Origin: Desertimonas flava
GTDB lineage: Bacteria; Actinomycetota; Acidimicrobiia; Acidimicrobiales; Ilumatobacteraceae
DNA: 54,126 bases
NCBI RefSeq assembly: GCF_003426815.1
Contig: NZ_QKYK01000037.1
Coordinates: 1 to 54,126, forward strand
Direction: 5' to 3'
The position numbers were made by a program, and so were the translations under genes. Positions 3,958 through 9,621 of the stretch are shown one piece after another. The stretch's first letter is position 1; each line of letters begins with the position of its first letter. The notes beneath the pieces are model-generated. The model had not been told where the DNA came from. It saw nothing but the letters and a program-made list of their open reading frames with translations, and did no database searches.

Positions 3958-5388
3958 ATGCAACGATCACGCATCAGCCGAGTGGCTGTGCCGATGATCC
4001 TGGGGGTGTCGCTGGTGGCGGCGACGGGCGCAGTCAGCGCCTCGGCACCGCCCGACAGCGAACCCGCCGGGACCGAGGCCGCCGGTTCGGCGGCGCCAGG
4101 AACCGAGACGGCGGCCAGCGCGGCTCCGGGCGACTCCGGCCCCGGTGGAGCGAGTGCCATCGCTCGGTGTGGTTACGCCCCGAGCGACGTGACCGACGGC
4201 GACATCTCGGGCTTTGCCGGCACCACACCTGCCGGTGAGCTGACGCCCGAGTTCTTCGACCGGCTGTGCAGCGTCGACCCCAACCTCGAGGATCTCAACT
4301 ACGCGCCGGAGACGTACGACGCAGTCGTCATCGTCGCTCTCGCCGTCGAGATCGCCCAGACCGACGGCATCGCCCATGCCAGCGAGATCAACGGGGTCAC
4401 CAAGGACGGCACGAAGTGCTACACCTTCGCCGAGTGCAAGGAGCTCATCGCAGCCGGTGAGGACATCGACTACGACGGTGCCTCCGGTCCGCTCGAGTTC
4501 GACGGCAACGGTGAGCCGCTCATCGCCAGCTACGGCCTCTACAAGATGGGCGACAACAACCGCATCGACCCGGCTCTGACGCAGTACATCTCCGTCGAGG
4601 GCGAACCGGCATTCCCCGAGGAGGTCCCCGTCGAGGGCACCCGCGAGGGTGACGGCGTGCTCACCATCGGCACGATCCTGCCGCAGACGGGGTCGCTGGC
4701 CTTCCTCGGACCACCCGAGTTCGCCGGGTTCAACCTGGCGATCCAGGAGATCAACGAGAACGGAGGCGTGCTCGGTCAGCCGGTCGTGGGCATCGAGGGT
4801 GACTCGGGCGACACGACGACGGACCAGGCGAACCAGACGGTCGACCGTCTGCTCGCCGAGAACGCCGACGCCATCATCGGTGCGGCCTCGTCGAGCGTCA
4901 CGATGACGGTCATCGACAAGGTCGTCAACGCCGGCGTCACGCTGTTCTCGCCGGCCAACACGTCGACCGAGCTGTCGACCTACCCGGACAAGGGCCTGTA
5001 CTTCCGTACCGCCCCGCCGGACATCTACCAGGGCGATGTGCTCGGTCAGTTCGTCATCAACGACGGCAACCTGACCGTGGCCATCCTCGCCCTGAACGAC
5101 GTCTACGGGACGAGCCTCGCCGAGCAGGCGACGAACACGATCGTCGAGTCCGGTGGCGAAGTCGTGCTCTCGTCGATCTACGACCCGGCCGCGACGTCGT
5201 TCGACAGTGAGGTCGACGAGATCGTGGCGGCCGACCCGGACGCCATCATCGTCATCGGCTTCAACGAGTCGAGCCGCATCCTGCGGACGATGGTCGAAAA
5301 GGGCGTCGGCCCTCGCGACAAGATGGTGTACGGCGTGGACGGCAACATCGGCAACGCCCTCGGCGTTGACTTCGACGCCGGCAACTGA
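3958..5388 (+). CDS. Branched-chain-type ABC substrate-binding protein, circularly permuted
   Basis: This 476-residue exported protein should capture a substrate for the LivFGMH transporter downstream. Residues 1-30 are a Sec signal peptide ending in VSASA; there is no lipobox cysteine. Residues 31-66 are Ala/Pro/Gly-rich. Residues 82-213 (from DISGFAGT, through TYDAVV, CYTFAEC and GPLEF, to QYI) correspond to what is normally the C-terminal part of this family. A linker of about 18 residues follows. Residues 232-476 (from DGVLTIGTILPQTG to VDFDAGN) are the normal N-terminal part, and the protein stops where the family usually continues into the segment now at the front. The order is therefore swapped with nothing obviously lost. 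The start is set by AGGGGGAG 9 nt upstream. Ligand unknown: branched-chain amino acids, amides or urea are possible. The permutation is read from remembered family order, not from an alignment. Confidence 0.9.
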   Translation: MQRSRISRVAVPMILGVSLVAATGAVSASAPPDSEPAGTEAAGSAAPGTETAASAAPGDSGPGGASAIARCGYAPSDVTDGDISGFAGTTPAGELTPEFFDRLCSVDPNLEDLNYAPETYDAVVIVALAVEIAQTDGIAHASEINGVTKDGTKCYTFAECKELIAAGEDIDYDGASGPLEFDGNGEPLIASYGLYKMGDNNRIDPALTQYISVEGEPAFPEEVPVEGTREGDGVLTIGTILPQTGSLAFLGPPEFAGFNLAIQEINENGGVLGQPVVGIEGDSGDTTTDQANQTVDRLLAENADAIIGAASSSVTMTVIDKVVNAGVTLFSPANTSTELSTYPDKGLYFRTAPPDIYQGDVLGQFVINDGNLTVAILALNDVYGTSLAEQATNTIVESGGEVVLSSIYDPAATSFDSEVDEIVAADPDAIIVIGFNESSRILRTMVEKGVGPRDKMVYGVDGNIGNALGVDFDAGN

Positions 5389-5443: not shown

Positions 5444-5503
5444 CGCGTGATCCGGCGAGGTGTGATCGGGCGCGCAAGGGCGGCCGAGCGATGCGGCGGG
5501 CGA

Positions 5504-6228
5504 TCAGGAGCGGGCGAGGGTGCCGAGGTAGAGCTCGATGACGCGCGGGTCACCGAGGAGGTCGCGGCCGGTGCCGCTGTAGGCGTTCTGACCCTGGTCG
5601 AGCACGTAGGCCCGGTGGCAGACCTGGAGGCAGCGGCGGGCGTTCTGCTCGACCATGAGGATCGCCACACCGGTCTCGTTGATCATCTTGCAGCGGAGGA
5701 ACACCTCGTCCTGCAACATCGGCGAGAGGCCGGCCGACGGCTCGTCGAGGAGTAGGAGCGTCGGGTCGAGCATCAGGGCACGGCCCATCGCCACCATCTG
5801 CCGCTCGCCGCCGGACAACGACCCGGCCCGCTGGTCGGCGCGCTCGGCGAGGCGGGGGAACAGGCTGCTGACCACGTCGTAGCGCTCGGCGAACCGCTTC
5901 GGGGCGAGGAAGCAGCCCATCTCGAGGTTCTCGCGCACCGTGAGCGCCTGGAAGACGTTCTTGGTCTGGGGCACGAAGCCGACGCCCTTCTGGACGAGTT
6001 TGTGGGCCGGCTGCCCGGTGATGTCCTCGCCGCGCAGCAGGACCGTGCCCGAACGCACGGTGACCATGCCGAGCACGGCCTTGAGGAACGTCGACTTGCC
6101 GGCCCCGTTCGGTCCGATGATGCCGACGAACTCGCCCGGGCCGACGTTGAGGTTGCAGCCGTTGAGGATGTTCACCTCGGGCACGTAGCCGGCGACCAGG
6201 TCGGTGGCGTCGATGATGTCGCCGGTGC

Positions 6229-6232
<4 letters not shown>
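5504..6232 (-). CDS. livF: Branched-chain amino acid ABC transporter ATPase LivF
   Basis: This 242-residue ABC ATPase is one of two that power the importer at the cytoplasmic membrane face. It has Walker A GPNGAGKST (residues 40-48), a Q-loop at FVPQTKN, signature LSGGERQ near residue 138 and Walker B LLLLDEPSAGLSP. The length is normal for LivF. It is the last gene of livH-livM-livG-livF on the minus strand; its ATG overlaps the livG stop (ATGA, 6229-6232), so translation is probably coupled. It converges on the gene for the binding protein. Confidence 0.95.
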
Positions 6233-7207
<975 letters not shown>

Positions 7208-7218
<11 letters not shown>

Positions 7219-8203
7219 CGAAGACCTGCTCTCGTCGATCGCCGAAGATTCCCTGAGGGCGGAAGACCACGAGGCCGGCCAGCGCCAGGCCGACGACGAT
7301 GAGTTTGACGACGCTGAAGTTGGTGGAGTCGACCAGCCAGTCGGGCAGCTTGTCGTTGCGCACCGACTGGTCGAGCAGGTTGTCGACCAGCTGGATCACG
7401 AAGAAGAAGATCAGTGTGCCGACGATCGGACCCTTCACGCGGCCGATGCCGCCGAGCACGATGATGGTGAAGGCGAAGAACGTGAGCGTCGTGGCGTACT
7501 GGCCGGGCTGGGCCGACTGGGTCTGAGCGCTCAACATGAGGCCACCGATCGAGCCGATCACACCGCCCAGCACGAGGCTCTGCATCTTGAACGCCAGGAC
7601 GTTCTTGCCCAGCGAGCGAGCGGCGTCCTCGTCCTCTCGAATGCTCTTGAGCACGCGGCCCCACGGGCTGCGCATGAGGGCCCAGACCAACAGCGCGATG
7701 AGGAGCACGAGCGACCAGCCGAGCACCATCATGAACAGGCGGTAGCCGTCGATGACCTGGACGCCGAGCTTGTAGCGGCCGTCGTTGGGCCACGGGTTGA
7801 GGTCCTGGAACCAGCCCGTCCACCCGTTCTTGCCGTTGCTCCCGCCGGTGAGCCACGTGAAGCGGCTGCTGTTGAGGAAGTAGCGGATGATCTCCGACGC
7901 GGCGATCGTGACGATGGCGAGGTAGTCGGCGCGCAGCCGCAGGGTCGGCACGCCGAGGGCGAGGGCGAGGGCGACCGATGCGCCGAGGACGAGGCACAGG
8001 GCGAAGGGCACCCGCCACTGGTATTCCGAGATGGTGATCGCAAAGGCGTAGGCGCCGACCGCGGCGAACCCGGCCTGTCCGAAGTTGAGGAGGCCGGTGT
8101 AGCCGACGTGGACGTTGAGCCCGGTGGCGACGAGGCAGTACGCAGCGGCGTTGGCGTTGATCGCGGTGTACAGCGCGTTCCAGAAGATGAGCTCCCAGTT
8201 CAT
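7208..8203 (-). CDS. livM: Branched-chain amino acid ABC transporter permease LivM
   Basis: This 331-residue permease forms the membrane channel together with LivH. It has multiple hydrophobic helices, the GYTGLLNFGQAGF motif typical of LivM near the N-terminus, and the cytoplasmic coupling loop around RIKEDEDAARSLG-like sequence (SIREDEDAARSLG). The reading frame is open further upstream, but ATG 8203 is chosen: it overlaps the livH stop (ATGA, 8200-8203), it has AAAGGAG about 9 nt upstream, and the residues before it are charged and unlike the family. Confidence 0.94.
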
Positions 8204-9540
8204 CCGATCCGCTCCTTTCTGCCGAGGATTCCTTGGGGCCGGATGAGCAGGATCACGATCAGGGCGATCAGCGCGCCGACATTCTTCAGGTCGTTGGCGT
8301 TGCTCACGACGAACGTCCACAGCTCGACCATCACGCCGACGACGAGCGAGCCGATGAGTGCGCCGAACGGGTTGCCGAGGCCGCCCAGCGTGATCGCCGC
8401 GAACATCAGCAGGAGCAGCGTGAAGCCCATGTCCCAGCGGATGCCGTACTCGAGGCCGTAGAAGACGCCGCCGAGGCCGGCGAGGGCGCCGCCGAGGATC
8501 CAGACGACCCCGATGACCCGGTCAGAGTCGATGCCGCTCGACGACGCGAGGTCGGGGTTGTCCGAGACGGCCCGGATCGCCTTGCCGAACCGGGTGCGGA
8601 GCAGGAAGAACGACACTCCGAGGATCATGGCCAGCGAGATGCCCATGATCCACAGCGACCGCGGCGGGAGGTCGACGGGACCGATCGCGATGGGATCGCG
8701 CTGCAGCGTGAACTGACCGTACTGCTTGAGGTCGCCGCCGACGAGGAAGAGGTAGAGGTTGCGCAGGCCGAGGGCGAGGCCGATCGACACGATCATCATC
8801 GACGTCAGGCTGGTGCCTCGTCGTCGCAGGGGTCGCCAGAGTCCCAGCTCGAGGCCGGCACCGGCGGCGGCGGTGGCCACGATGGCGACCAGGGCGGCGA
8901 CGATCAGGGGCCAGGTCGTCCAGCTGCGATTGAGCCCCCAGGCGAACAAGGCACCGAACGTGACCATCTCGCCGTGGGCGAAGTTGGAGAGACCCGTCGT
9001 TCCGAAGATGAGCGAGAGTCCGATCGAGGTGATGGCGATGATGGTGGCCAGCTTGAGCCCGTTGGCCAGGGTCTGGGGCAGCTGGCTCCACTTGCCCTGG
9101 ACGGTGCGGAGGTCTTCGCCGAGGTTGAAGACCTGCGTGGTACTGCTGCGGGCCCGGATGTCGCGGGTGGAGGACGCCTGCTCGTCGGGCAGCGTCAGGC
9201 CCTCGGGCAGCGTGTCCGTGTCGAGGCGGATGACGTAGGTTCCGGGCTCGGGCAGCGAGATCCGGTAGGTGCCCTGGTCGTCGGTGACGGCCTCGGCGAC
9301 GAGCTCGCCCTCCTCGGTCTCGACGACGATGCGCACCCCGGGGACACCTTCGCGAACGCGTTCGCCGTCCTCTTCGTACTGGTTGTTGACGCGGCCCTGC
9401 AGCGTCTGATCCCCGTCTGCGGTACCGGCCGACGCATGACCGCCGCCGCCCAGCCCGAACAACGTGAGCAGGAGGAAGACCAGCGCCGCGAAGACCCCCG
9501 CTCTGGGTAGGCGTGAGGTCCATGGTTGCTCGCCGTTCAT
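8200..9540 (-). CDS. livH: LivH permease with an added extracytoplasmic Ig-like domain
   Basis: This 446-residue protein is a permease fused to an extra N-terminal module. A first hydrophobic segment (about residues 14-32) is followed by about 120 residues resembling carboxypeptidase-regulatory/SdrD B-type domains (EGVPGVRIVV, DDQGTYRISLPEPGTYVIRL), predicted outside the membrane. The LivH core begins near residue 150 (SIGLSLIFGTTGLSNFAHGEM) and runs to the end with the usual helices and the RFGKAIRAVSDN coupling loop. LivH normally has about 290-310 residues and no such module. ATG 9540 is preferred; ATG 9594 would add 18 residues. A -10-like TAAGGT (plus-strand 9552-9557) sits 11 nt before ATG 9540. 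Confidence 0.9.
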   Translation of the reverse strand: MNGEQPWTSRLPRAGVFAALVFLLLTLFGLGGGGHASAGTADGDQTLQGRVNNQYEEDGERVREGVPGVRIVVETEEGELVAEAVTDDQGTYRISLPEPGTYVIRLDTDTLPEGLTLPDEQASSTRDIRARSSTTQVFNLGEDLRTVQGKWSQLPQTLANGLKLATIIAITSIGLSLIFGTTGLSNFAHGEMVTFGALFAWGLNRSWTTWPLIVAALVAIVATAAAGAGLELGLWRPLRRRGTSLTSMMIVSIGLALGLRNLYLFLVGGDLKQYGQFTLQRDPIAIGPVDLPPRSLWIMGISLAMILGVSFFLLRTRFGKAIRAVSDNPDLASSSGIDSDRVIGVVWILGGALAGLGGVFYGLEYGIRWDMGFTLLLLMFAAITLGGLGNPFGALIGSLVVGVMVELWTFVVSNANDLKNVGALIALIVILLIRPQGILGRKERIG

Positions 9541-9551
9541 GGTGGCGCGGG

Positions 9552-9557
9552 ACCTTA
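9552..9557 (-). promoter_or_regulatory. -10 box candidate for livHMGF
   Basis: TAAGGT on the minus strand lies 11 nt before the livH ATG at 9540. It would give a leader of only a few nucleotides. The J-domain gene diverges 82 bp away, so this gap must hold both promoters. Confidence 0.35.
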
Positions 9558-9621
9558 CAAGACTTCGCGGAGGGTGGTGCGCAATCGCGTGCAAGCGTTA
9601 CGGGGCCGCAACAATGATGTC

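Follow-up and report, generated by a model that had tools for sequence, protein, structure and literature searches.

Can the closing part of a two-lobe substrate-binding protein come to stand ahead of its opening part in nature, and, if so, is such a protein a lone oddity? The question is raised by an open reading frame at positions 3958-5388 (plus strand) of a stretch of 54,126 nucleotides from Desertimonas flava (contig NZ_QKYK01000037.1), which at its full length is called the window throughout. The frame encodes a secreted binding protein of 476 amino acids. A preliminary description, made without database searches, had proposed that it is a natural circular permutation of a Peripla_BP_6/LivJ-type protein, and this claim held, on the grounds of a crossed match to the solved structure 4gnr, of rotation in silico, of canonical homologs and of permuted relatives. 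It has to be added that the permutation is no single curiosity, as the rearrangement is widespread and most likely recurrent. In our reading the protein very likely (probability of about 0.9) serves a LivFGMH-type amino-acid/amide ABC importer as its substrate-binding component and has a circularly permuted two-lobe Peripla_BP_6 fold; the fold, the binding of ligand and its delivery are inferred. The features of the locus are given below.

3958-4044, plus strand: signal peptide, about residues 1-29 (read from the sequence; signal type and cleavage site are inferences)
4045-4194, plus strand: low-complexity tether rich in Pro, Ala, Thr and Glu, with the new N-terminal segment; Cys71 is codon 4168-4170
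4195-4596, plus strand: closing part, residues 80-213, normally C-terminal (ANF_receptor 267-351 of 353; alignment with canonical closing parts)
4597-4650, plus strand: linker, residues 214-231, from the old C-terminus to the old N-terminus (comparison with the ends of canonical homologs)
4651-5385, plus strand: opening part, or core, residues 232-476 (Peripla_BP_6 2-224 of 343 on residues 235-459; 4gnr 7-236)
5338-5340, plus strand: codon of Asp461, aligned with the acidic residue that LivJ has in lobe 2
5504-6232, minus strand: livF ATPase, convergent with the binding protein (ABC_tran; a neighbour in permuted and canonical loci)
6229-7218, minus strand: livG ATPase (ABC_tran, BCA_ABC_TP_C)
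7208-8320, minus strand: livM permease (BPD_transp_2)
8200-9594, minus strand: livH permease with an SdrD_B/CarboxypepD_reg-like N-terminal domain; start codon uncertain

Order of the two blocks

The closing and opening parts of the protein are swapped, and the old ends are joined by about 18 residues. Peripla_BP_6 matches the core with 118.1 bits against a cut-off of 31.7, after which the protein ends. The N-terminal piece (4180-4620) is matched by ANF_receptor with 28.7 bits against a cut-off of 25.4; this is a profile of the same fold as Peripla_BP_6, the matched positions being its last part. When the protein was rotated in silico, each profile gave a single match, over positions 2-337 of 343 for Peripla_BP_6 and 5-351 of 353 for ANF_receptor. 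Peripla_BP_4 reached only 20 bits, below its cut-off of 35, as against the 118 bits of Peripla_BP_6, and no NCBIfam model matched the window protein at its cut-off. The closing part holds a YDAV stretch and a pair of cysteines, Cys154 and Cys160.

A profile of our own, built from 20 permuted relatives, was run against the solved structure 4gnr and was found to match it in crossed order. Profile positions 219-453 fell on 4gnr 7-236 and positions 56-133 on 4gnr 243-321, the latter stretch being weak (11 bits alone); a further 4gnr fragment at 313-339 had no score of its own. Taken together, the crossed matches and the rotation lead to the conclusion that the fold is present once and that the cut lies between 4gnr 236 and 243. 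The permuted rows that were tabulated span both of our block profiles nearly end to end, with the exception of one L126 row that is cut by the end of its contig.

The position of the cut can also be read from canonical homologs, in which the blocks stand in the usual order. The closest examples are G053, with 67% identity in the core and 53% in the closing part, and G041, with 62% and 58%. In both, core and closing block lie 3-4 residues apart, e.g. ...VYGVDGNMGNALGEQFTEPGALEGMKGTTPL..., whereas the end of permuted proteins resembles ...VYGCDGNMGNALGENFDAGK, and the part that follows their signal and tether starts much like ...GELEGMKGTTPL...; the core of the window protein terminates at the new C-terminus ...VDGNIGNALGVDFDAGN. 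The permuted linker starts at canonical ends (...LTEFRTAQL) and stops at canonical beginnings (...GDGVLKIGTL). The boundaries first proposed, namely a closing part at residues 82-213, an opening part from residue 232 and an end at DFDAGN, thus held within 2-3 residues. So did the claim that nothing was lost or doubled, as the canonical homologs carry both blocks and the linker ends match theirs.

It might be objected that an extra domain with no relation to the fold makes up the N-terminal segment, and that the core is truncated or closed in some other way. In favor of this explanation, the N-terminal part is not recognised by Peripla_BP_6 alone. Nevertheless, the alignments refute it and leave it all but excluded, since the segment is matched by the last part of ANF_receptor, a block of 53-58% identity to it is found at the C-terminal end of the canonical homologs, and the crossed 4gnr matches also speak against it.

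No solved chain in the permuted order was found among the structure matches examined (60 of 68 in one list). An AF2 model built from two sequences, the window protein and L061 (L062, with a match of just 54 residues, was omitted), had a pLDDT of 35 and a pTM of 0.28 and was unusable. In the absence of a usable structure model, a single continuous fold is a homology inference only. Of the checks that the preliminary description had named, alignment to Peripla_BP_6 and inspection of the order in relatives were both carried out and both support the permutation; for the third, a structural comparison, the only model at hand was that of pLDDT 35.

Distribution of the permuted form

A colinear match to the permuted protein, at 42-76% identity when the window's own match is set aside, was present in at least 83 of the 221 genomes of the window's family, a few of the matches being cut by contig ends; chance can thus be excluded. 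Canonical homologs of at least 50% identity were found in at least 38 of the 221 genomes, and the two sets do not overlap. These 38 are genomes with a core-only match of at least 50%; the order was read directly in 20 and judged from the match in the other 18. Left out of the number were G123, a permuted genome whose second, core-only piece (59%) is cut off by a contig end, G165 (42%), G097 (fragments), and fragments in G110 and G115. An even sample of the order, comprising 397 genomes and sharing genomes with the family-level set, held at least 19 permuted cases with the window included, the others at 50-62% identity. Of the genomes sampled from the remaining orders of the class, 87 had a match at 1e-30, and no permuted case was seen in the 84 of these that were inspected. 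In the phylum sample of 396 genomes three permuted cases lay outside the class (G943, G1174 and G1040), and the survey outside the phylum was limited to plasmid records. A Rhizobium match that looked colinear (query 153-457, 23%) was rejected, as it starts upstream of the annotated gene and the frame has its core in the usual place.

A second objection is that the swapped order is an artefact of assembly or annotation, in which two partial tandem genes were merged, and tandem copies do exist at the locus. Independent genomes refute this explanation and it, too, can be all but dismissed. The same order occurs in the 83 of 221 family genomes, and a second family has a form with another cut in 85 of its 121 genomes; several of these genomes are single contigs, and the listed full matches have no internal stop. 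It is also opposed by the signs of selection on both parts. Four pairs gave dN/dS values of 0.21-0.35 in the core and of 0.26-0.56 in the closing part; the estimates are rough, dS being high in some pairs, and on this basis purifying selection on both parts is likely.

Number of origins

In a tree of 92 rotated rows (L119 was dropped, being identical to L061) the 42 permuted rows that include the window form one clade (100/99), which is nested among canonical rows beside G053 and G041. A set of 89 rows omits L021, the core-only L126 row and L125. As a separate observation on the last, L125:7295-8755 (G444), its linker is out of frame, with compensating frameshifts that may be genuine or assembly-derived. 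AU tests were run on hand-picked subsets of 31 and 41 rows, and their p-values are formally weakened because the groups were named after the first tree had been seen.

Rows L171 and L172 (G1174 and G943), of a distant family, have the same cut as the window protein, yet they group with canonical L162 and L187 (99/98). Forcing them together with ten main-clade rows gave a lnL that was 89 lower (AU p 9e-42). The joint clade was likewise rejected on the core alone (p 3e-9); the closing part alone did not reject it (p 0.23) and still placed the pair with L162 (80/93). In that family the permuted form was found in only these 2 of 35 genomes at 1e-40. Other distant permuted rows, L129, L168 and L169 (family f19, 32-39% identity), stand elsewhere on long branches, and are not counted as a separate origin because one clade with the rest was not rejected (p 0.40).

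A permuted form with an earlier cut, here called type C, is represented by the protein of G1040, in which a lipoprotein-like signal is followed by VRLYGTDGNMQNSFAAELKDRADLVDGMKGTTPL and the C-terminal end is ...SAGLIKALADAGVPIRH. Since the VDGN stretch has moved with the closing part, the cut must lie about 28 residues earlier. The 85 of 121 genomes mentioned above are those of its family (f138) with a match colinear to this protein, and the termini, read in 16 type C loci with G1040 included, agree within a few residues. Nine type C rows form one clade (100/100) beside canonical L181 (98/87), and a single clade of type C with the main permuted group was not rejected (AU p 0.14). Even so, the different cut requires either a different event or a shared fused ancestor. 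A TGA inside the G1040 match was considered as an internal stop and rejected, as it is the protein's own C-terminal stop codon. In one type C locus (L222) a gene at 5485-6759, just upstream of the type C protein, is matched in 4 of the 8 loci compared and resembles no Pfam family.

We conclude that the permutation has likely recurred: the cut of the window protein arose on at least two occasions, and the one some 28 residues earlier probably stands for a third. The rival explanation is that the permutation happened once, long ago, and that the canonical order was then regained repeatedly. It can point to the one cut that is common to all but type C, to the joint clades that were not rejected with type C (p 0.14) and with L129, L168 and L169 (p 0.40), and to the closing part of L171 and L172, which taken alone did not reject a joint clade either (p 0.23). 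Against it, L171 and L172 sit with canonical L162 and L187, a clade of the pair with the main group is rejected whether the whole protein or the core alone is used, and the canonical order prevails in the family at large. Moreover, reversal alone cannot connect type C, whose cut differs. We therefore regard this rival as very unlikely and keep to recurrence.

A bolder version of the recurrence reading, which we hold to be more likely than not, is that the actinobacterial LivJ-type protein is a hot spot of permutation, with at least three independent events: two in the same loop, one about 28 residues earlier and perhaps a fourth in L129, L168 and L169. It rests on the view that tandem copies and a tether at the front ease the step, and that a shift of the tether to lobe 2 is tolerated or even favoured. 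Under this reading the window's clade was permuted in place beside the transporter.

A possible route to the permuted gene

Permutation by duplication predicts fused duplicates (PMC3320104). In genus g61 the frames L166:9966-12452 (828 aa) and L167:5443-7899 (818 aa) have the order core-closing-core-closing, and each locus has two further tandem single copies and is convergent with livF. As these proteins are distant (core 39%) and off the direct line of descent to the window's clade, they show that the fused state exists and not that it was ancestral. Tandem copies are also present in G236 and G393 (permuted) and in G277 (canonical), and Nonomuraea gerenzanensis has three tandem canonical copies convergent with livF. 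We propose that the gene would have been duplicated in tandem in place and fused in frame to give core-closing-core-closing, that the first core would then have been lost in frame behind the signal and tether, and that the second copy would have gained a stop past the cut, which leaves the permuted gene with its signal and tether kept.

Fission and fusion, by which two half genes are joined in the other order, is the alternative route, and both models yield the same product (PMC3320104). Fused duplicates and tandem copies are what was observed, and split halves were outside the scope of the search; fission and fusion is thus unlikely, though it remains possible.

Gene neighbourhood

The window binding protein adjoins livF-G-M-H (5504-9594). 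A convergent livF lies within 1.6 kb in 34 of the 42 main-clade permuted rows and in 44 of 58 canonical rows. Three of the 8 permuted exceptions are near a contig edge and five are not; an adjacent convergent livF is missing despite flanking DNA at L101, both L115 copies, L116 and one L126 copy. L171 and L172 have liv genes nearby, but in a divergent arrangement. Ten permuted loci and eight canonical ones have a longer set of neighbours, in which IMPDH, Sua5, livF and ctaA accompany the binding protein. The window has ctaA on one flank of the binding protein and liv block, and Sua5 with IMPDH on the other, an arrangement reversed with respect to most such loci. The common position on the livF side indicates that permuted and canonical loci hold one and the same gene at one and the same site, serving the same transporter, the last step being inference. 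An in-place replacement of the canonical by the permuted version is thus likely, with use of the same transporter inferred.

It could be that the permuted protein has left transport and acts as a sensor or scavenger. This would fit type C loci without liv genes: in 12 of them with flanks (L173, L215-L224 and L228) liv genes were absent, save for a 30% ATPase match in L223. It would also fit the G236 and G022 copies, which have no adjacent livF. Against it, livF is convergent next to the window protein and 33 other main-clade rows, just as it is beside canonical ones. A departure from transport is for that reason very unlikely, and service to the Liv importer remains the preferred reading. As an observation in its own right, L115:6683-10291 (G236) holds two tandem permuted proteins with no livF close by and G022 (L116) holds one; all are on long main-clade branches.

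The SdrD_B/CarboxypepD_reg-like (Ig-like) extension of LivH was present in 84 of 88 LivH frames examined, the window's included (the sequence shared by L061 and L119 was counted twice). The domain was considered as a partner specific to permuted proteins and this was rejected, as it also occurs beside canonical binding proteins. Liv importers of this kind may possibly use it for docking or tethering.

Predicted fold and function

The permuted protein is predicted to fold as one two-lobe body with a small amino-acid-like ligand in its cleft, and the bound ligand would be handed to the same LivHM/FG. We take the cut to lie in lobe 2, shortly before the second crossing of the chain between the lobes, by reference to the LivJ structure. 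The tether, which joins the body at lobe 1 in canonical proteins, would then do so at lobe 2, and one extra lobe crossing would be added by the linker. In a 20-row alignment of permuted relatives S247, S248, T271 and D397 (numbering of the first row) are invariant; these align with what we take to be the ligand-binding Ser and Thr that LivJ has in lobe 1 and its acidic residue in lobe 2. In the full window protein Asp461 stands 15 residues before the new C-terminus. As had also been suggested, the new termini might alter hinge motion or docking, which is conjecture only.

The first cysteine of the window protein is residue 71, and there is no lipobox cysteine at the end of the signal. Lipobox-like forms such as LVAAACGG are visible in many relatives, and a crude test, which misses some visible ones, was passed by 38 of the 48 permuted rows and by 54 of the 58 canonical ones. 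Since the lipobox cysteine is absent, the window copy may possibly be released rather than lipid-anchored. An extra cysteine pair, Cys71 and Cys104 (4168-4170 and 4267-4269), was present in only the window protein, L090 and L091 among the permuted rows scanned, the latter two being its nearest relatives. Cys71 precedes the closing part and Cys104 is in its first part, so that a later disulfide pinning the new N-terminus is plausible, an inference from the residues alone.

Relation to known systems

With LivJ/LivK-type proteins (type I, cluster B; Peripla_BP_6, HAAT family; 4gnr, 1usg, 1z15, 3ipc) the window protein shares both fold blocks, the VDGN-type motif and the livFGMH partners. It differs from them in the swapped order of the blocks, the new ends and the linker of about 18 residues that joins the old ends. 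As its parts do not follow one another in the canonical order, it is a permuted relative and not a canonical member.

The preliminary description had stated that no natural permutation was known in this family, and this has to be amended. A naturally permuted type I binding protein, Tp0684/TpMglB-2 of Treponema pallidum (type Ic/cluster Bc; PMC4990184), has been described, though it belongs to another family and has another cut; natural permutation in amino-acid binding proteins was not found in the literature searched, which did not cover most subscription papers. TpMglB-2 has an added lobe crossing and, though permuted, binds ligand and changes shape, and tethering was discussed by its authors (PMC4990184). 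The window protein, too, is a type I binding protein in permuted form, and for it an added lobe crossing is inferred. In contrast, TpMglB-2 belongs to the glucose-binding MglB family and has the first three strands of its N-lobe moved to the C-terminus (PMC4990184), whereas the window protein has no MglB-type sequence and is cut late (4gnr 236/243), with about the last third moved to the front. The actinobacterial case also differs in having close canonical homologs and, most likely, more than one origin.

Engineered permuted halves of the Thermotoga ribose-binding protein have shown that type I lobes tolerate new termini (PMC9815098); unlike the window protein, these are designed single lobes and not natural. 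Saposin/swaposin and DNA methyltransferases are cases of permutation by duplication with duplicated intermediates (PMC3320104). They are other proteins, and in the LivJ-type case the signal and tether must stay in front.

Natural circular permutations are mostly known as isolated events that separate remote proteins. In the present case homologs of either order, with up to 67% core identity, are found in the same gene context, with two cuts, what are likely several origins, and fused duplicates in related genomes, and this combination makes questions testable that are usually argued from one case. Among them are which loops of a two-lobe protein accept new ends, how permutation affects closing motion and docking, how signal and tether are retained, and whether the position of the tether is under selection. 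There is also a warning in these proteins, as a family profile covers just part of them (224 of 343 positions in the window protein), and they may provide natural scaffolds for permuted binding-protein sensors. The apparently repeated rearrangement of this binding protein in actinobacteria could thus be used as a recurring natural experiment.
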